Virus record (IMG/VR): IMGVR_UViG_3300022932_000001
Coordinates: 62,001-126,000 of that record
Reading direction: 5' to 3' (one strand)
Length of the DNA stretch: 64,000 bases
From: a virus
Part shown: in pieces, positions 228 through 63,311 of the stretch
How positions within the stretch are numbered: position 1 is the first letter of the stretch
How the letters are laid out: each line of letters starts with the position of its first letter
The notes under the pieces: model-generated
The model's database searches: none
Seen by the model: the letters and a program-made list of their open reading frames with translations, nothing else
Told to the model about the DNA's origin: nothing
Translations under genes and position numbers: made by a program

Positions 228-3200
228 TTATGCACAATTATCATCTAATGGATTATTATTGTTCTTAAACGTTGACTTAAATAGATCTGCAAAATCTTTC
301 ATTCTATCTTGATCAACATCTGCTTGATCTGCATTAGCATTAAAGAATGAGTTGAGCATATTAGATGCTAAATCATCTTGTTCTGGTAATGGAACTTCAT
401 TATACATATCAGCAGATGGTTCTGATTGATAACTTGTAATTGCTTCAGCAGAGTCTTCTGAATTATATCCAAATAAATTAAGTAAATCCAATGGAGTTTT
501 GACACTATCTTTTAATTCTTGTGTTAAGTCATTATATAACCCCCCACTAAAAGATACACCTTTGTTTGTTACTTTAGATGTTATACCAAACTTTTTAGCT
601 AAAACATCTACTGGAGATTCACTATTTGTAAAGTTAATATTATTTCCTGATAATGCACCAGTTTTCTTAACAGTTTCACCAATAGGTGCAAGTCCCATAC
701 GTTGTTCAATATCTGAAGCATCCATATTAGAATATCTTCCAGTATTCTCTTGAGCATTACCAAATTGTTTTCTAACTCTTGGTTTCTTAGGTATTACTGG
801 AATAGGTCCAAATAACTCTCCAATCATAGTAGATTTTCTACTTCCTGTAGGAGTGTATTCTTCATATATAGCTCCTAATCCATTAGCAACATATTCACCT
901 TTTTGAATAAGTCTATTTGGATTTGATTCATCTACTGTAATATCACCAACTTTCTTTTTGTCTTTACTATCTTTAGTAACAGCTATAAGTTTATAATAAG
1001 TTCTTTTACCTTGAATATTACTATCTACAATTACATAAGGAAATGCATATTTACCTAGAGCATTAGAACGAAAACCTTTAGCATCTAATAAAGCTTTATT
1101 TTTTTTAAGTTTAGCTTTCTCAGCATCATTAAATTTACCAGTTCTTTTTATTTGTATTATACCTTGAGTAGTACCAGTATCAAACATTTCTTTTTCATCT
1201 CTGATACCTGCCCATAAGTTAATAGTTATACGAGCTTTAGGTAATTCAACTTCAGGAGTTTTAGTAGTATCATCTTTAACTTTTGGATCAAGTTGGGCTA
1301 ACTTTTCTCTTAAAGTAAGTTCTTTAACTGATTCATCTTTTTTAATTTGTCCAGATTTAGTATAAGATTGAGGAACAAATTTCTTTACATCAGGATCTTG
1401 CGTTTCTTCAAATACAGGATTTCTATTCATGATCTTTGTAATCTCAAAAGTATTACCTATATGAGAAGTATAGGATTTCATAAATTCATTAAACAAATCA
1501 GTAGATTGAACACCAAATGTATCAGAATATTTCTGATCAATACCTTTTGTATCAAGTGGCATTTTCAATACACTATTAACTTGTTCAGTAGATTTAAGTA
1601 AATCACCAAACATAAATGTAGGTATATATCTTATGAATGAATTAGACTTGAACTGTCCAGCATCTTTAACTAAAAGATAGTTAAATATATCTACAGCATT
1701 AGCTCTAGTATCATCATTCTGATATATCTCTAAGAAACTATCTTTAAGTTTTTCAACCTGATACTCACTTAATTTAGCCCAAGTATTAGCTTCAGCTTTA
1801 TTAATACCATCTCTGTTAAGATCATTCATTGCAGTAACTTTATCATTGTTAGTTACTTGTGTAGAAATAATATTAACAAATTTAGAAGCAAAGTAGTTAT
1901 CAGGAAGTTTAGCTCTGATAGTTTTAAATGTATCTATAATATCATTGAAATCTTCACCTTTTAGTTTAGCAGACTCATCATAAATCATTGCATTATCTAA
2001 AGTAGATAGTGTTCTCAATTTATTATTGTCTAATAAAGACTTCATATAAGCTTTTATAGAAAGGTAAGATAACAAGTCTCTTTTTAGAATTGTATTAAAT
2101 TCTTTTTCTGTAGATTTTCTTACACTAAGATTTTCTTTGACTATAGTAGATATACGTTGGAATACGGGAGTTTTCTCTATAAACATAGTTTGAGACATAT
2201 GATCAATTTGATCAGCAGTCTGAATATAGTTATACATAAACTCATGATATGGTCTAGATTTATTAGTAGCCATAAATACTTGACGTAAATCAAATGGTAG
2301 TTTAGATTTATAGAAATCTGAATTATCCATTCTTAACCCAAGCTCTTCTATAGTAGTTTTAATATCTGCTAAGTTTTCAAAGCTTGTTCCAAGACCTTTA
2401 GTTAATTTAAGTACTTTAGCTACTTTAGAGAAATTAGCTGCTTGTGCTTTAATACCTTTGAATGATTGTAATACTGCATATTGTAAATCAGCATTATCTC
2501 CATTTGTATTAAGACCATCATCTAATAAATCATCTGTAAGATCCATAATTTCTTCTTCAGATCTTAACTTACTATATTTTTCTATAATGTTATCTAATAA
2601 TTCACCTTTCTTAATTTGTTGTTCTGTACCAGTTTTAATTTTGTTATTAGCAATCTTAATCTGTGCAAAGTACTCTCTTATAGAAGGTTGTAATAAAAAT
2701 CTAATCGCAGATTTAATAGGTACACCTTGTGCAAGCATATTAGTAACATATCCAATAGCTTCTATATTAAGACCTAATCTAGCTGCTAATCTTTCCTTAG
2801 CATTATCTGTCATTGCAGATACTACTGTAGAAATAGATCCAAATATTCTATCACCAGTATAATCTCCTGTAATAGGATCAAAAGCTTTTAATGACTCTTT
2901 ACCTGATTTATCTCTAGGAGAATATGTATTAAATGTATGACCATTTAATTTGAATAAGAATAAGTCTTCATAATTAGGAACTCTTGTTACTTTACCATCT
3001 TCAGCTACTTCTTCAGATATAGCAGATATGTATGAGCTTCTTAAGTTTATATTGAATGAACTTAAGATAGAGTATGCTAAGATAGAGTTTACAGCAGGAC
3101 CAATATTTCTAGATCCCTCTTTATTGTTTGTAAAGGATTTATACTTACCTATTATACTATCTGTATCTACAGCACCCTCATTAACAATATCAACTATTTC

Positions 3201-6200
3201 AGGTACTTCAGAGAAGTCACTTAGTAATTCATTTACTATGTTTTTTAATGGATCTACTGATGCAACTTCAAATGCAATTGGAGCTCTACCTTCTTCTTGT
3301 TCATTAACCATATATTCATTACTAACTAAAGCAATTTTCTGAGCTAATATTCTGTTGTTAAGAACACCAGTGTTTATTTCACCATTTACTTTAACGTAAT
3401 CTATATATTCTTTAGGAGTTGAAGGTAATCCAATAAGTCTCAATGCTTCTTTATATAGAACCATTTTATCATCAATTGTTTCAACTGATAATACATCAGA
3501 TAATATACCTAATGCTTCTCCTGGTTCTAAATCATCAGATATTGTAGACTCAGTAATATCTTTTTTAAGTTCTCTAATAGTTAATTTAAAATCTTTATTA
3601 TTACCAAGCATATAAGTTACATATTCATCAAATTTCTCTTCTGTAGTAACTGCTGTGCCATAAGCTAATCTTTTACCATCTTTACGATAAGTATCAGCTA
3701 TATGCATATATAGCTTATCAATATCAAAATCGGCTCCTGATATCTCTATAAGTTCGTGTGGATATATACCTGTACTACCATAAAAAGCTGGCATTGTATC
3801 AACCATTCTTAATGATATAGTTGAGTGTTTATCCTGTGATGGAATACGTACACCAAAAGCTTTAGCTAAAGCTTCTGGTATTTTTTCACCAGGTTTTAGA
3901 TCCATTAGTTCAGCAAAGTGAGGAGGAAGTACAAATTCAGAGTATCTTCCAATTATATTACCTTTCTCATCATACTCAGCTACATTGTGACGTAAATCAT
4001 CTATGTAATAATCACCAACTTTAAGTCCTTCAAACTCTCTATCTAATACATTATTCCATTCATTAGCTTCAGCATAATCATTTGGAGATAATTTAACTTC
4101 ATCTGTTCTGATTATATTCCAAGCTATTGGTTGATTAGTAACAGGATCTAACTTAGTTACTTGTTTAACTACTTTATATCCATAGTTAGACATCAATGCT
4201 ATTGAATGTCCAGGTACTTTCTCACTCATTACTCCTTTAGAGAAATAAGCTAAGAATAATTGAGTATACTTATCTAGAGTAATTGGATTATTTAAGTTAT
4301 ACTTAGGTTTACCAGTTTTATCTACTTCAAAGAAATCAATCAATTGTGAGTCAGCTCCAGTAGCTCTAAGATTATCTACAGCTCTTTTCTGAAACTTAGC
4401 TAACTTAGGAGTTACATTTTCTAAATTAATAGATGATGATAACTCTTCAAATGCACCTTCAATATCAAAGATCTCATTTCTAGCAGTCATATAATTATTC
4501 TTAACACGTTGAGCTGTATCTGCAAGATACAATTGTTTAAGAGCTCCTATGCTTGTCTTGTTACCTAAGAAATCTACTTCAGTATCATCATTTTGTTCAG
4601 CTAATATTAACTGTTTAGCTTGAGTTGGATCTGTAATAACTAACTTGTTACTTGGATTTTCTAACTGTAATCTCCAGAATTTAGTTTCCTGACGTTGGAA
4701 GTTGTGATCTTTAGCTTCTTTAGCAGATGCTGCAACATTAACTTTCAATCCTTTGGAAGCCGATTTAGGTACAGAATATGCAATAGTATTATTTCTAGAC
4801 TCAAAGTCTTCTAACTTTTCTCTAAGATCATGTAATTCTTGTTTACCTGGTAAAGCTTTCCAGGTCCCATTATCGTTATATGAAGTTAATTCTTTAGTAA
4901 GCATAACAAATGATGTCTTGATATACATCTTTCCATCATAGTATACTAACTTCATTGAGTTGAACATGGAATGAAGATCTTTAAGACCATCTATCTTATT
5001 ACCAGTTTTAGGATCAGTAGTACCAAAGATTTCTTTAGCAGTAAGCTGTTCACCATTCTCAATCTTATCAAGCATTTTAGCTGTAAATGGATCTAATTTA
5101 CCTAGACCATGCAAAGTATATCTCATACTTTTTACAGTACCCCAAGTTTGAGCATCAGCTTTTTCACCAATACCACCACTATATTTACCTCTATATTGAG
5201 GATCTTCAAATTGAAGTATATAACTTTCAGTAAATTGTTCAGTAATACCCACTTGTGGTGCTATTACAGTACTTTCTAATGATGCTCCAGATGCATTTGC
5301 ACCTCTAGCTCTTTTAACTTCATCAACACCATCTTTTAATGATGCTGCTTGATCTCCTAATAATAGTTGGTTTAATGATAATGTATTGATATAATCATTT
5401 ACTAGTACTTGACCAATATTATGTTCAATCTTATTATATATAATATTTAATTGAGAGTTCTTTCTTTCATTAGATACTTTCTTTTTACCTTCTTGAGTAT
5501 AGAAACCATCTTGAATATAATTATCAATTAAGTTATTTGTATATGTTTGTTTTACTCCTGAATTTAAATCTACTTGATTCTTAGTAATTACTCCTGTAGA
5601 AGATAATAACTCAACAGTATCAGCAATCTGACCTTCCCAATAAGCTTTAATCTGATTAGTGATCTCAGATTTCATTGAGCTAATATTAAACTCTTCATTT
5701 AATGCAGACTCTTCTATAGAAGTTTTAAGATCACCTAACATAAGACCAGTTTTATATAGAGTTAATCCTCTACCTTTAGAGTAATCTCTTTTACCTGTAG
5801 TCTTATTAGTACCATAGTGGTAACCATCAATCTCATCAATTATTCTATCACCAGCTCCTATATTGTTTATTTCATCTTTAACTCTTTTAATTCTTTCAAA
5901 TTCATTAACTACTTCGTTATATAATATATCAGCAGCCTCATCAGATACTTTTACGTTTTCTGATTTATCTAAAGTAACCGCTTTAATTACAGGAAGTCCT
6001 AATGTATCTCCAGTATTACTAGCTTCTAGTACTCTAATAAGATGTTGAGCTGTTCTAAATGTTCCACCATCTTCAGTTTTATATTCTTTACCATAAGCAT
6101 ATACATCAAATAAACTGGTTAAGAATTCTCTGTTAGAGAATGACCCATAAGTGATACCTTTATTTTTATTAGCTGATATACCTTTATCCTCTCTTATAGA

Positions 6201-9200
6201 ACCATCTTCTTCAGATTTACTTAATACAGAAGATTTAGCTCCGTCAATACGTTTAATACTTAAGTCACCTTGAAGTACTTCAAATTTCTCTGAGTTTAAT
6301 AAATAGTTGTTCTCTAAGAAAGGATCTGCTTTAAGTTCATCAATATAAGCATCACTATTAAGTTGTTGTATTCTTACTAAGTGATAAGTAGGTAATTGGT
6401 GAGCATATACTAATTCACCATCAGCATTTTTCCATGATGAGCTGTAAACAGTTTCATCAAATACTCCATTACCTTTAGCTAAATTATTAATACGTGTTAT
6501 TACACCACCTTTACCAAGATCATTAACAGCTTCTTCAGCTTCTTCTTCACCTTCTTCAAGATTTACTGGATCAGTATTTCTTTGATCATCAATATTTTTA
6601 GAGAATGGATCTTCACCAGATTGAATAGATCTTATTATTTGTTGTATATCTTCTCTAGTAGCAAAGTATGTTTCAGCATATGCATTAATTAAAGTCTTTT
6701 GAGCCTCAGTTAATACAGATGCATCTTTATTAGATACAATAGAAAACTTAACAAATGCTGGATCTAATGATATACCTATATCATTCTTAAGTTGATTTGA
6801 TATTTCTTTAGATTGAACCTCCAACTTGTCATCTTCTATAGATAGGTCTTTATCCATTAAAGTATATAAATCTTTTAATGATCCAACTCTATCATCATAG
6901 AATTCACTTCTAGCATCAGCATTTCTTAAAGTTAATACTTGATCCTGAAATACTCTTACATATGCATTTTGCCATGCAGAGAATTGTGTCTTAGCAGAAT
7001 CCCTTCTATTAGCTAACATGACATTACTCATTTTAGCTTCTTCACGTATATCTTTGTTAATAAACAAATAATCTACTGAGTATTGATTAAATCCTTTTAT
7101 AACTTGTTGTACAAGTCTAGCTCTTTGAGGATTTGTAGATACCCAAGTTCCATCTTCATTGAATTCAATACCTGCATCATTAAAGAATTTAGTAATAAAT
7201 TTACCAGTTTCAGTTTCATCAGACTTTAATAATCTAAGTCTGTTCATAACCATATTCTGATCACCAATATTAGCTACAGCTTTAAGCATACCATTGTATA
7301 CAAGGTTTGCATTAACAGCTTGTAATAAAGGTACACCATCTTTTAATTGGCTATTACCAAACTCATCTACGTATTCAAATGTAGTTGTTGCTATATATTG
7401 TCTTAAGAAGTTTGATAATGAACCAAATCCACCAATGGAATGTGTTTCTTTCCAAGAGTCAGTAGTTACTCTGTCTCCATATTCATCAACAGCTTCATCA
7501 AATACATCACTATCTAGACTTTGTTTAAAGCCCATTAATCTTAAATGTACATCAACTGCTTCTAATAAAGAAGCTCTATTTTCTTCTTCAGAGAAGACTG
7601 TATATCTATCTTGTAATCTTTGAAGATAATTTTCCATGTCAGCCTCTTGACTTTCATCAGGAAATAATCTATCTATTTCATTAGAATAGTAATCATCCTC
7701 TCTATAAGGATTATACAATTCTTTATATTCATCCAGAATACTTTCTAGTAATTGTTTTTTATTATACTGCTCTACTTGGGATAATCTATCATAGAATATA
7801 GAACTAATACTAGCAGCTAGTTGATCCCCTTCTTGTTGAGATAAATATCTGTCAATTACTATATCATTACCATTTTCATCTTGTACAATATCTTCACCTA
7901 CTTTAATTACTTTTAAAGCTGGTGTAGTAATCATATTTGATTCTTCCCTGGTAAATTGATTTTGTTGTAAATTACTATTTCTGTATTTACCATTATCAAT
8001 ATCACTGAATAGATTTTCTATATCAGTAAATGATCTTCCAGTAAATAATCTTTTAATCCACTCCATTATTTTAGCAAAGAAACCTTTAGCTACATATGAA
8101 GTATTAACTTTATTATCTGACTTCCAATCATCAAACCTATCTGCTAAATATTCTTCATAATAAAGCTCTTCCAATTCTGTTGGAGTTAGATTATCATATG
8201 AAGGATGTAATTGTTTGAATTCCTCTAAAGCAGATTTAATATTAACTTTATTAGCTTTTAATTCACGTTTAGCTATATCTCTTAATTGAGTTATTTGCTT
8301 ATCATTAAGTAATAACCTAAATGCAGCATGGAAAGCCTCATGATATTTATAAGGAGTATTTTCACCAATATTAATTCTACCTTTTATAGTAGTATTACCA
8401 TCTCTTAGTGTATCTAAATAAGATACAAACATACCTACAGTAATCTTATTAGTAGATAGGTTTTTAGTTAAATCATTAACTTCTTCTACAGAAATAAACT
8501 CAGGTAAGTTATCTTTTACCCAAGTATTAAATTTATCAATATGTTCTACATCAGATGCTTCAAATTTCTCTCTTGATATAACTTTAAATGCTCTACCATT
8601 CTTTACATTAAGTTTAGCTTTAAGTTCATCTAATTGTTTACCATATATAACTTTAGCTTGTTGAGTAGCTTGTATTCTAGCCTTACCAGCAGTTAATCCT
8701 TCAGCTATTAACTCAGCAGATTTAGTTCTAATATATTCCATCTGATTAGCTTTGATCTCATCAGATAGTTCTTTAAATGAACCTGTTTGTGCAGGAGCTG
8801 TTTGTGTTGGATTAGATTGAATTGCTTTTACAGCATTATCAATAGCTTGTATAAAATTAGGTCCTAAACCATTTATAACACTTTCTCTACTCTCACCATT
8901 AACAATACGTTGAGCATATTTTTGAACTGCATCAGTTGATCCGTTTTCAATACTTCCAGCTATAGCATCAAATGCTGCTGTAACTTGTTCTCCAACACTT
9001 AATGTATTTTGTACAGTTTTAGATGCAGCTATCTCACCTAATATCTGAGCCCTTAAAGCTTCATCAATAGGTACACCCATGTTATCCTGACTAGTAGCTT
9101 GATTAAGTTCTTTAACTTTAGCAGGATCTACTTTATAAGTCTTAGGATTTACTACATCATATTGTATTCTTGTGTCAACTGCTTGAGCAGGAGTAGCAGG

Positions 9201-12200
9201 AATAACAGCTTCAATAGTATCTTTAGGATTATATGTTAATTGTATATTTTTAACTACTGGAGGATTTAAGAAAGTACTTAAGTTGTTAACTCCAGCTGAT
9301 CCTATATCACTACTAATAGCATTTTTGAAATTATCTTTAGTTAAAGTAACTGTAATAAATTCACTAGGATTTTTAGCGGTCTGATTATATTTAACTATAG
9401 CTTCATTTATTCTACTAATAACTTGGTCTATATCTTCAAAGTTAAGTGGAATATCTTCTTCACTTTCTTTTACAACTATAGAATGTTTAATAGTATTAGA
9501 ACCTTGTGGTATATTAAATTTAAGCTGTAGATTTCCCATAGCATTTACGTAGAAATCTACATAAGTACCTCTATTTTCTAAAGGAAGAGCTATGAATAAC
9601 TTACTAGCTATTTCATCATTTAATACATCATTATATGTTTCATCTTTACCACCAGTATATTTAGGTTTAGTTACATTACCTTTTGAGTCATATACTTCAA
9701 CTGTTTTAGATTCTTTAACAGTTAAGTTGTTCTCTTTAGATAATTTAGATCTTTCATTAATCTTAGATACTAAATCACTAAACTGTGTATCATTCCATGG
9801 ATCAGATGATAATTGTACAAATCTTATTGTACCATTAGGAAGTTTAACTACAGCTACGTATCTACCTAACTGTTCTGTTAAATCTCTACCTTGAGCTTTA
9901 GCTTCTTTAACTTCTTTTGCTATTTGTTTAGCATCAGCTCCAATAGCATTTGTAATAGGAATTACTTGAGTAGTAAATTTACCATTTTTATATTTTCTTA
10001 CTCTATCTAATACATAAGTATAACCATTGATAGTACTATGTTCTAGTTCAGATAGTTTAACACCTTCTTCAGAAAGAGCATTATCAAATTCACCAACAGA
10101 TATATTAAGATCTAACATCTGTTCTATTTGTGGTTCAGTTAATTTAGTAGATACACTATTACCTAATACTTTAGATAAAGTACTAAATAGTCTTCTACCT
10201 TTAATAAAATTTTGTTTAAAAGTATCTAATGCTTGCTTAGCATCTACTCCTGTAGTATCAAATATTTCTGAAAATTGAGCTATTGTTAATTTCTCTATAG
10301 GAACATTCTTACCTTGTTTATCTCTTACAGAATAATGAGTATAATTAGTTATGTAACCAATAGGTAAACCAGCATATTCTAATCTTACATTTAAATAATC
10401 ACTATTAACTTCTAAATTACCATTAGGATTACCTGTAGATTCACCAGCAAGAGTTGTACTTCTAGGACCTCCTTTAGAGACAGTCATAGTTAACCTATCA
10501 GCTATATCTTCTTTAGTCATATTAGCTAAGAATTCATCCAATCTTTTTTGAGCTGCTGGTATACTTTCACGCTTACCATTAACTTCATTTTGATGTGGAT
10601 ATATTCTAATTAGTTCATTTACTCTTTTAATCTTAAATTTATTAGGACCATTAAGATCTACTGGAGGTAAGTTAGCAGGAAGTACTTCAGTTTCTGTTTG
10701 TAGTCCTTCTAATACTAATCCATCTAATGAAGTAATTGATTTAGTATCATTTGCATCATTAACATTTTTAATACGTATAGCAAATACATTTAAACCTGCT
10801 TCAGGTGATTCACTAACAACTTCATATTTTTTACCAGTTGAAGTCTCATTAAATATAAAACCTTTCTTTATATTCTGACCATCAAATACATAAAAACCTG
10901 TTACATTATCTTCTGATGCAACAACTTCTGGATTATTAGGAGCTGGAGTTTCTGTTAAAGGGGTTGCTTCATTGTTTAATGATTTAATCTCCTGATCAGT
11001 ATCTTCATTAATTTTATTAATACGTTGTTGTATAGTATCTAATTGATCTTTTAATTCATCAGATATTTGTCCAGGAACAAGATCTTCAAGTCTAGTTTCT
11101 ACACCTGTTTTAATATTAGTTATTACTATACCATCTTTAGATAATTCAACTACATGTTCACCATCCTCTTCATACAGTTCTTCAAGTTCTTCTATAGAGG
11201 AGTCTCTACGATCATTAATTTCCTTAATCCTTGGATCATTAGGATCAACTTGAGGTGTAGTAACTTGTAAGTTTTCTCTTACTTCTTCTTCTTGAAGATG
11301 TTGATTAATAGGTGCAACAATTTCTTGTTCAATAGAATCTCTAAAGTTCTTTAATCCATTTTTAGTATCTGCATATAATGCAAATTCTAATCCCATAGCT
11401 CTAGCAGTATTTTGATACTGAGCTTTTTCCATCAAAGCTTTTTGATAAGCTATATTTAATGAACTAGTATTCTTAGCTGAATTTTCATAACCATAATATC
11501 CTCCTTCAGAGGGGGGTAGATTTTCTAATGATAAACTATTATCTTTAAGATGTTTATTTTTTTCTTTATTAAGTTCTGCTAATAGTTGTCTAGCTACCTT
11601 TAATTTAGTAGAGTTATTAGAACCTGCTTCTAGAGCAGTAATAAAAGCTTTTTGTGAATCAATTCTAAATTGCAAAGAATTAACTGCATCAACACTCATG
11701 TCAGATAAGTTTGATGTTTCTGGTGAAAGTGTTTGAGCTTTAATAGCTTCAACATCTTTATTAATAGTATTTACTATTCCAGTAAGAATACTTTGCTCAT
11801 CAGCTAATCCTGTTAATCTATTTATTCTAGCATTCTCTTCAGCAGGTTTACCTGTAATAAGAATACTATTCTTAATTAAGTTATTTTGAGCAATAATTTG
11901 TTTAGCTAAGGTTTTATATTCACCTATATCTTCTCTACTAGATGGATCAAATCCCATTTTAGCTAATGCTTCAGGTGAAGCATTACTAGCTTGATCTAAT
12001 TTCTCAGTTAAAGTATCTTCTATACCAGCTTCAATATGAGCTTGTACATAATTTCTAAATGATATATCTCTTAAATATTTAGCTTGATTTTTATCTTTAA
12101 GTGTATCAGCTAACTCAGCCATAGTTGAGTTTAAACTAAAGTTAGTAATAATTTCACCTAGTTTACTTTCATTAACTATAGGTTGATTATTTTCATCTAA

Positions 12201-57636: not shown

Positions 57637-57759
57637 GTACAAATATAAAAATTTTTACCCATAATTTTTATAGTGTGTTTTAGTGTGTATGTGGGTACTA
57701 CTCAATGCTCCCCGTCTTACTATTAGCGGCAATGGTGCCCCACTTTAAACTATATTATT
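57637..57759. promoter_or_regulatory. Divergent promoter region
   Basis: 123 bp between oppositely read genes. On the right-hand strand it holds GTGTGTTTTAGTGTGTATGT followed by GGGTACTACTC, and AACTATATTATT directly before the 91-residue gene. On the left-hand strand it has TATATTTG (Bacteroidota -7 type). The GT-rich part recurs at 58.84 kb. Confidence 0.5.
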
Positions 57760-58035
57760 ATGGCTGAATTAAGCAATCAAGGATTAATTCCTTTAGACAG
57801 ATTTATGAAAGTAGCAGGATTGGATGGACTTCAATTCAAAAAAGGTAAAGGCAGACAATTCTGTTCTACACCTGTTGGAGTAGTCTTTATGGCTGACAAA
57901 TTCAACAAAGATGATGTACAGAAATTCATTACTGTAGCTGGTCCAGGTGTTGAAACCAAACAAGGTGTATCTTTAGAAGGCACATTGTGGTTGGTGAATG
58001 CTCAAGTAGAAGATGGTGATTTAATTGGTGCTTAA
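57760..58035 (+). CDS. First rightward gene, unknown (91 aa)
   Basis: MAELSNQGLIPLDRFMKVAG, then FKKGKGRQFCSTPVGVVFMA and an acidic end (WLVNAQVEDGDLIGA). Basic middle loop (KKGKGRQF) and alternating strands suggest a small beta protein. Codon use is less AT-rich than its neighbours, and the position directly at the divergent promoter suggests strong early expression. Candidates are a nucleic-acid-binding or host-takeover protein. No family recognised. Confidence 0.65.
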   Translation: MAELSNQGLIPLDRFMKVAGLDGLQFKKGKGRQFCSTPVGVVFMADKFNKDDVQKFITVAGPGVETKQGVSLEGTLWLVNAQVEDGDLIGA

Positions 58036-58059
58036 TCAACACCACTCCTACGGGAGTTC

Positions 58060-58535
58060 TAATGGGTACACAAGCATGTTATAATAGACATGCTTGTTAC
58101 TTAAACTATCATTATGTGATAGACTAATGTTCTACCTATATTATGTTCTTTATTAATATAGTTAATTATAACATCTAATTGGGTCTCAAATACTATGAAG
58201 AGAACAAGACAGCTAAACCATGGAGGAAGTTGATGTTATATTAATCTTTTATAGAGAGTGATTCATTGTAAGCTTCTTACTTTGTCCACATTGTGGTTCT
58301 ATTCTCTATTATTAATACTATAGATCTTATTAGTCTGGTTTTATGTGAAGGCCAGCAACCTATGATGACTCCTTGAGTAGGCTAATAGACATAGTATATT
58401 AACTACTATAGACATGTTATTTGGATTAAGTTATAAGATCTATGATCAATCAGCCAATAATACATCATCTATAGTAGTTATTTTCTTTAAAGTAAAATAT
58501 GTTTCATACTCATCCTGTGATAAAGTATAAACATC
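58060..58535 (+). ncRNA. Candidate large structured RNA A
   Basis: No coding frame over 12 codons runs through this 476-bp block. It holds many perfect or near-perfect helices: ACAAGCATGT/ACATGCTTGT (58070-58097); CTATCA/TGATAG (58106-58122); TATAACATC/GATGTTATA (about 58167-58240); ATAGAGA/TCTCTAT (58251-58309) enclosing GTAAG/CTTAC and CCAC/GTGG; ATAGATCTTAT/ATAAGATCTAT (11 bp, 58320-58443) enclosing CTGG/CCAG, ACTC/GAGT and ATAGTA/TACTAT; and GTTT-ATACT/AGTATAAAC (58501-58532). Such nested, multi-branched pairing is typical of large phage RNAs such as GOLLD or ROOL. I cannot assign it to either. Strand follows the neighbouring genes. Confidence 0.6.
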
Positions 58536-58584
58536 TGAAATATAATTAACTATCAATTAACTAATAATAACTAAACTTCTACCT

Positions 58585-58839
58585 ATGAAACTGATTTCCC
58601 TTATAAAAAGAAACAAAACAGAGTTATTTAATTGTTTATTATTATCTCTGTCTATATATATACTACTAGCTCTGTTGTTATATACTGTTGATCATCTAAT
58701 TACTCCAGAACATATAACACCAAACACTTTCTTACAATGTTTATCTAATACATTCGTTGTATATTCTGCACTTATCTACTCTTTTATTAGTTGTTATATC
58801 TATATAATCGACGTTAAAACATGTTTAGAGGACGTTTAG
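58585..58839 (+). CDS. Small two-helix membrane protein (84 aa)
   Basis: Two predicted membrane segments: about 16-38 (LFNCLLLSLSIYILLALLLY) and about 57-77 (FVVYSALIYSFISCYIYIID), with a basic N-terminus (KLISLIKRNK) likely cytoplasmic. It could be a holin-like, superinfection-exclusion or membrane-targeting protein; topology with short loops fits small holins. No lysis enzyme is adjacent, so this stays open. Confidence 0.6.
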   Translation: MKLISLIKRNKTELFNCLLLSLSIYILLALLLYTVDHLITPEHITPNTFLQCLSNTFVVYSALIYSFISCYIYIIDVKTCLEDV

Positions 58840-58952
58840 GTGTGAGTGAGTGTGTGGGTATTATCAAGAAGAACAATCCATAACAAGTTAGATTAGTCTA
58901 ACTTTACCAATTAGAGATAACTAACTAATAGCTATAAACTAATCTAACTCAA
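58840..58952 (+). promoter_or_regulatory. GT-rich intergenic region with leader
   Basis: Begins with GGTGTGAGTGAGTGTGTGGG then TATTATC, close to the GT-rich stretch at 57.68 kb, and ends with the leader AATAGCTATAAACTAATC before the 92-residue gene. Confidence 0.4.
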
Positions 58953-59231
58953 ATGAGAACACCAAAACTAATATGTCCAATACATTCTAATATAGTAGAT
59001 TGTGAAGAATATGAAATGGGTATTATAATACCTTATCAAGTAAATGATATATATACTATTACTAATTGGATTGATACAAATATGGATTCAAGACTAGTAA
59101 ATAAAGCATATGAAGTGTATGGTGATTGTATTATAACTCATATGATTGTTATAGAAAGACTTGATAATGAAGTATTCAATAATGATCTAATTGCTAAATG
59201 TATTATTATTAATCAAGATATACAGTTATAG
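58953..59231 (+). CDS. Small protein, unknown (92 aa)
   Basis: MRTPKLICPIHSNIVDCEEY then MGIIIPYQVNDIYTITNWID and KCIIINQDIQL. Three Cys in the first 45 residues and mixed alpha/beta character. No family recognised. First gene of the run of small genes with short recurring leaders. Confidence 0.55.
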   Translation: MRTPKLICPIHSNIVDCEEYEMGIIIPYQVNDIYTITNWIDTNMDSRLVNKAYEVYGDCIITHMIVIERLDNEVFNNDLIAKCIIINQDIQL

Positions 59232-59958: not shown

Positions 59959-60041
59959 GGTCATATGTCAGAGTGGTAATGAGATGGTCTGCAACACCAT
60001 TAAAACCGAAAGGAACGTTGGTTCGAATCCAACTATGACCT
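59959..60041 (+). tRNA. tRNA-Cys (GCA), class II-like variable arm
   Basis: Acceptor GGTCATA/TATGACC, anticodon stem ATGGT/ACCAT with loop CTGCAAC (anticodon GCA), T-stem GTTGG/CCAAC with loop TTCGAAT, U73. Between anticodon and T arms are 16 nt (TAAAACCGAAAGGAAC) with a small CC-GAAA-GG hairpin instead of the usual 4-5. D-arm TCA/TGA only. U73 and GCA both support Cys despite the long arm. Confidence 0.85.
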
Positions 60042-61921: not shown

Positions 61922-62085
61922 TGGATACTACAGAGATAAATAACATTCTTCAGAAAGCAACACATGATGATCTTATATCTATTAAATTAGATTTAGTTGA
62001 TATTAAGAACCATGGATTTTTATATGGTACTACGATAGATATATTTAACGAAATTATCAAGCAAGTAGATATTAGAACAAAATAG
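61921..62085 (+). CDS. Small helical protein, unknown (54 aa)
   Basis: MDTTEINNILQKATHDDLIS then IKLDLVDIKNHGFLYGTTID and FNEIIKQVDIRTK. Two helices around a short turn. Start and stop are tightly fitted between neighbours, and it lies directly upstream of the antitoxin-like gene. Unknown. Confidence 0.57.
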   Translation: MDTTEINNILQKATHDDLISIKLDLVDIKNHGFLYGTTIDIFNEIIKQVDIRTK

Positions 62086-62812: not shown

Positions 62813-62824
62813 AGATATGTTCTG

Positions 62825-63260
62825 GCGAACAAGTGTAATTCAAACTTCAGGATTGAAGCAGTTATAGTCTGTATAGTAATGTATCATTCTCAGAGGGTTT
62901 TAATTCTTCTAATTAATTATTAAATACAATCAAGGTGACCAAATAAAAGTAGGTCTTAAGCATTAAAGCACGATTAAGTAATTGTAGATTAATTAAAGGG
63001 TTAAAATCCTCCTGATATTCAAAACGGTGACGAGGATTATATCCAAGATAAGCTAGATTTGTATCAGCTTCCAAAGGGTGAGCTAATATAATATAGTAGT
63101 TCAGTGTAGAACATAGCAACTATTTAGCTAAGGTCGATAGGAGACAATACTATACCTATCCTATATTATATTAGAATACAGATGGCTGTAATTAAATCAT
63201 AGGAAGAGCTGTAAAGGGAGGTCCGTCAAAAGCTTAAACGAGAGGGAGTAATAATTAATT
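62825..63260 (+). ncRNA. Candidate structured RNA B
   Basis: About 440 bp without a convincing gene on the reading strand. Helices: CTTCA-GGAT-TGAAG (62845-62858); GACC/GGTC (62937-62955); CTTAA/TTAAG (62955-62978); AATCCTC/GAGGATT (63005-63038); AAGCT/AGCTT (63050-63070); GTTC/GAAC (63099-63112); GATAGG/CCTATC (63136-63160); TACAG-ATGG-CTGTA (63177-63190) inside CCTAT/ATAGG (63160-63203). The right end is G-rich (GGGAGGTCCGTC). It does not resemble structured RNA A in primary sequence. Function unknown; strand by neighbours. Confidence 0.5.
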
Positions 63261-63311
63261 CACGTCTTATATGATTTATAAATAAATAATAAAAAACTTA
63301 AACATAAAACT

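Follow-up and report, generated by a model that had tools for sequence, protein, structure and literature searches.

Directly downstream of the first rightward gene of a crAss-like phage we detected a gene-free block of 549 nt, which is probably one of two or more undescribed non-coding RNAs of this phage. A frame of hairpins around an exchangeable middle is supported by the data, whereas the multi-branch layout put forward in a preliminary description of this DNA is not. The phage is represented by a virus record of 134.9 kb (IMG/VR record IMGVR_UViG_3300022932_000001), of which the 64,000 nucleotides from position 62,001 to 126,000 were analysed; this whole stretch is called the window. The terminase of the phage is about 24% identical to the terminases of crAss-like phages. 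Genes in the window point leftward as far as 57.6 kb and rightward from there on, and the block is enclosed by the first rightward gene and a gene for a small membrane protein:

57672-57697, plus strand: GT-rich promoter-like element GTGTGTTTTAGTGTGTATGTGGGTAC, upstream of the first rightward gene
57760-58035, plus strand: first rightward gene, 91 aa, without assigned function
58036-58584, plus strand: gene-free structured block, a candidate RNA by fold z-score and helix counts
58585-58839, plus strand: gene of an 84-aa hydrophobic protein, downstream of the block
58840-58862, plus strand: second GT-rich promoter-like element, preceding the gene at 58953-59231

As the preliminary description had stated, the block follows the first rightward gene, is free of genes and is placed near tRNA genes. 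The nearest of these are less than 2 kb away on either side; eight are located at 54.6-56.1 kb on the minus strand and one at 59959 on the plus strand. No ORF of more than 38 aa with an ATG, GTG or TTG start is present inside 58036-58584, and six-frame peptides of the block gave no convincing relative among the fetched loci of related phages (best E 0.08). A 21-codon ORF is located at 58062-58127. The window genome is gene-dense, and such gaps are absent from most of it; phages retain little DNA without use.

The only homologue of the block among phages, viral contigs and the phage's own genome was found in IMG/VR 3300023171_000029 (genome G001, loci L002/L005). Homologues of the 91-aa gene were restricted to L002/L005 and, with about 35% identity, L099/L103; its protein matched no Pfam family, and its AlphaFold model (pLDDT 53) was too poor for use. 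The sole relative of the 84-aa gene is found in L002/L004, the protein being 99% identical in L002. The motif GTGTGTGGGT (up to one mismatch) occurs at two places in the window only, the element at 57672-57697 and position 58850. GT-rich elements are also present in L018 and immediately upstream of the hatchet RNA in L015 and L058. The GT-rich element (like GTGTGTGGGTA) may be a phage promoter.

The block folds on the plus strand with -122.1 kcal/mol (z -3.1, 0/100 shuffles) and on the minus strand with a z of -2.0; the version in L002 reaches z -3.5 on the plus strand (0/100 shuffles) and -3.7 on the minus strand. Since both strands fold better than chance, folding does not fix the strand of the candidate RNA. 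Random 500-nt pieces of the genome (n=36) have a mean z of -1.1 (sd 1.3), so that a value of about -3 is notable, not extreme. The region 58060-58535 contains 14 perfect helices of at least 8 bp (4.8 in dinucleotide shuffles), 7 of at least 9 bp (1.5 in shuffles) and 5 of at least 10 bp (0.5 in shuffles), the longest with 13 bp. The number of perfect helices, given as at least ten in the preliminary description, is far above chance, as none of 100 shuffles matched the counts at any of the three lengths.

In a coarse genome scan most of the fold signal was concentrated at about 58001-58160 (z -5.1) and 58401-58560 (z -4.0), and the central 240 nt alone folded no better than shuffles (z +0.4; z -0.6 in L002). 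The fold excess of the block comes from the flanking hairpins, not from the middle. The long-range pairs had been described as nesting into a multi-branch layout; instead, two helices clash with the 13-bp hairpin 58400-58412/58468-58480, the 11-bp helix 58320-58330/58433-58443 by crossing it and the 10-bp helix 58316-58325/58467-58476 by competing with it. Judged from the alignment by eye, L002 has kept two of the seven helices of at least 9 bp, namely 58070-58097 (10 bp) and the 13-bp hairpin. The multi-branch layout is thus unsupported, most of the named long-range pairs being missing from the relative.

The flanks of the block in G001 are 99.5% identical to the window over 3.4 kb on the left and 99.3% over 0.8 kb on the right. 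Between them, 58170-58398 is swapped for 168 bases without detectable similarity, and the borders of this exchange sit near helix borders. The frame hairpins H1-H4, H8 and H9 are kept in the relative. The following parts were distinguished:

58044-58057, plus strand: hairpin H1, ACTCC-TACG-GGAGT with a UNCG-type loop, directly 3' of the stop codon, identical in L002
58063-58103, plus strand: hairpin H2, 10-bp helix ACAAGCATGT/ACATGCTTGT, identical in L002
58106-58122, plus strand: hairpin H3, with a double change from C-G to G-C in L002
58136-58161, plus strand: hairpin H4, CTATATTA/TAATATAG, identical in L002
58170-58398, plus strand: central segment, replaced by 168 unrelated bases in L002 (L002 3410-3577)
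58167-58240, plus strand: subdomain with the closing helix TATAACATC/GATGTTATA, which outscores about 98% of shuffles
58315-58397, plus strand: subdomain closed by ATACTAT/ATAGTAT, better than 86.5% of shuffles
58400-58480, plus strand: hairpin H8, 13-bp helix TAACTACTATAGA/TCTATAGTAGTTA, kept in L002
58499-58534, plus strand: hairpin H9, consensus fold, identical in L002

At the place of 58167-58240, L002 carries a shorter subdomain (CTATTGC/GTAATAG, better than about 98% of shuffles), which is presumably its equivalent, and at the place of 58315-58397 a helix AATACTAGTA/TACTAGTATT that beats 400 of 400 shuffles; the corresponding arms in the exchanged middle were picked after the fact.

Window and L002 share 320 alignable columns, 17 of which differ. 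By the local folds of the window, 4 of these 17 are paired (P 0.011); the same test with L002's own folds was not significant (P 0.30). In the 5' part 2 of 13 differences are paired, and these compensate each other, CTATC..GATAG in H3 of the window being changed to CTATG..CATAG in L002. The preliminary description had proposed to look for compensatory changes in relatives: this C-G to G-C pair in H3 is one, whereas most of the long-range pairs are absent. Two homologues are available for covariation of the block, with one clear compensatory pair. Sequence searches and covariance models of the 5' and 3' frames recovered the block itself and G001 only; two weak matches of the frame models that were inspected turned out to be a terminator and coding sequence. 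Searches for further block homologues with the 91-aa and 84-aa genes as bait led to L002 only, and the terminase used as bait in genome contigs gave no match.

Our preferred, though tentative, explanation is that the block is a co-transcribed, trans-acting and modular structured RNA of about 500 nt. It would be transcribed rightward together with the 91-aa gene, possibly with the 84-aa gene too, and would consist of a fixed frame, formed by H1-H4 on the 5' side and H8-H9 on the 3' side, and of an exchangeable middle that boundary helices hold in place. The frame might provide stability and common contacts and the middle a variable specificity, a division that would loosely correspond to that of GOLLD RNAs (conserved 3' part, variable 5' part). 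We infer rightward transcription, and a product rather than only a leader, from the neighbourhood; the strand, an action in trans and a target of the middle are likewise presumed. This explanation is favoured by the folding of both versions, the excess of helices and the missing coding signal, furthermore by the paired differences, the compensating H3 pair and the exchange borders near helix borders. Against it stand the restriction to two sequences that are nearly identical outside the exchanged part, the P of 0.30 with the relative's fold, the shuffle-like middle, the equally well folding minus strand of the relative and a neighbourhood that is mosaic anyway.

Ranked next, and rather unlikely, is gene-free filler, i.e. 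a junction prone to recombination whose hairpins arose by chance or are of the terminator type and which has no function as a unit. The exchanged middle has no structure signal of its own, gene content right of 59222 is mosaic, and no third homologue was found; however, helices exceed those of shuffles, H3 shows a compensatory pair, the frame is kept in both versions and such gaps are rare in this genome.

Ranked third, and unlikely too, is a long structured 5' UTR of the 84-aa gene that would act in cis on translation or on the stability of the mRNA and would not yield an RNA product of its own. The block runs directly to the start codon of this gene with no promoter-like GT element between them, the 21-codon ORF could encode a leader peptide, and gene-free blocks alternate with single small genes in L015 and L058, too. 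About 550 nt would be very long for a leader, though, and the middle is exchanged even though window and relative share the protein encoded downstream at 99% identity.

Further evidence for a modular RNA came from a second block of the same phage:

62813-63311, plus strand: second structured block (z -3.2), its motifs recurring in other phages
62877-62887, plus strand: 5' motif TAATGTATCAT
near 63069, plus strand: hairpin loop TTCCAAAGG
63083-63096/63161-63174, plus strand: long helix
63174-63185, plus strand: 3' core GAATACAGATGG

The consensus of its core consists of UAAUGYAYCAU, a hairpin loop UUCCMAAGG, a long variable helix and GARURCAGAKGG. In G001 the core is nearly identical and one helix domain (about 63083-63174) is exchanged. 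The core is common to at least seven other crAss-like phage records (at least eight with the window phage); outside the window, the element is located at L176 about 1890-1980 (minus strand), on a phage-like contig in a Chitinophagaceae MAG, and L185-L192. A covariance model built from seven sequences also matched two others, G013 (58.5 bits) and G014 (56 bits), and in 294 genomes of the family of the MAG it matched only that MAG's own contig. Rfam assigned no family to the second block. In eight sequences 11 of 16 pairs were changed on both sides and 92.9% of cells pair, with a covariation score of 0.49 compared to 0.19 in shuffles (0/500 shuffles) and low values in slid controls; the alignment was assembled by hand from excerpts with the variable loops cut out, which favours structure. 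This covariation already suffices for the definition of a new RNA element. A GIY-YIG-type gene (L094 8620-9177), identified by eye, lies between parts of the element in G007 (L015); it looks like a homing endonuclease gene, as though the RNA element served as its home.

That the same phage contains a second block with a conserved core, an exchanged helix and strong covariation argues for a modular RNA at 58036-58584 as well. The structured-RNA candidate of the preliminary description is supported by this second RNA, by above-chance folding of both versions and by the compensatory pair, whereas its multi-branch model of long-range pairs is not conserved.

About 160 loci were fetched with two baits, the terminase and a conserved neighbour gene of 120 aa. 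Hatchet ribozymes follow the first rightward genes in three records (L015, L058, L084), and a pistol ribozyme is located at the same place on the contig in the Chitinophagaceae MAG:

L015 2905-3042, minus strand: hatchet ribozyme
L058 3027-3165, minus strand: hatchet ribozyme
L089 (G033): hatchet ribozyme
L176 2377-2438, minus strand: pistol ribozyme
L136 6500-7780 and 1680-2146, minus strand: gene-free sequence of very stable fold and, further along, a phage tmRNA

The three hatchet records contain further gene-free structured blocks (z about -2 to -4.6), with small genes in between. In L136, about 1.3 kb at 6500-7780 are gene-free with z down to about -6 to -9; this stretch also contains a tRNA-like sequence with a long insert, and a phage tmRNA is found further along. 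Gaps of at least 300 nt were present in the scanned part of 30 of 52 loci, and 17 of 43 gaps had a z below -2.5, some of them being tRNA clusters, terminator arrays or, possibly, small genes that were not listed. Nothing structured is present at the matching place in L096/L097, the closest loci by the 120-aa neighbour gene. Judging from these counts and from L096/L097, structured blocks at the rightward start are common, not universal; the ribozymes and other blocks at this place speak for a modular RNA in the window phage, L096/L097 against it. The gene-free blocks of different phages are mostly dissimilar to one another. Another conserved gene-free stretch of about 260 nt (L094 7727-7991; L093 13732-13993) is 90% identical between L015 and L058, recurs in part at L118 6257-6347 (minus strand) and has no Rfam match. 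L091 carries small genes of about 80-108 aa in a row (2551-4706 and 7868-9736); their ends are alike (..ARKIIYED), and they probably form one family that arose by gene duplication.

Improbable, finally, is an element acting as DNA, such as a replication origin or a site of protein binding or recombination, whose inverted repeats would lie at the divergent gene boundary: inverted repeats function in DNA as well, both strands of the relative fold better than chance and gene direction switches just to the left of the block, but in the window z is beyond -3 on the plus strand only, G-U pairs of the outer H2 stem are possible in plus-strand RNA only, and similar places hold RNA elements proven by covariation or Rfam.

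A wider, more doubtful possibility is that the place where the rightward genes of these crAss-like phages begin serves as a hot spot for the mutual replacement of large structured RNAs of different kinds, some of which contain self-cleaving ribozymes. Two undescribed classes would then be present in the window phage, the one at 58036-58584 known from two phages and the one at 62813-63311, which is possibly a catalytic or protein-binding RNA of a new kind. A locus with differing structured RNAs and ribozymes, at which domains can be exchanged between nearly identical genomes, would allow function to be approached by comparison; GOLLD and ROOL, among the few large phage RNAs known, are without established function.

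The preliminary description had compared the placement of the block with that of these two RNAs and named an Rfam search as a check. Neither 58036-58584 nor the relative's version matched any Rfam family at the gathering score or E up to 10; this includes the GOLLD and ROOL models and those of group I and group II introns. The block is therefore not filed under GOLLD or ROOL, and membership in either is unsupported. GOLLD and ROOL are both large phage RNAs often found near tRNA genes or tRNA islands, and GOLLD has one conserved and one variable part (PMC12286853). Like GOLLD, the block would be a large RNA of a phage, lies near tRNA genes and has constant and variable parts; unlike it, GOLLD has many members of more than 800 nt with extensive conserved structure, and its variable part is located 5' of a conserved 3' part, whereas that of the block is central. 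With ROOL the block shares the size class, the phage home and the nearby tRNA genes, but ROOL has a complex conserved fold with multiple pseudoknots and forms an octameric cage. Hatchet (RF02678) and pistol (RF02679) ribozymes are carried by related crAss-like phages after the first rightward genes, whereas neither model matched the block or any other part of the window phage. The core of the second block shares no sequence or model match with 58036-58584 (nothing credible, best 4.7 bits, E 7), but it resembles it in being located in the same phage and on the same strand and in combining a conserved core with one exchanged helix.
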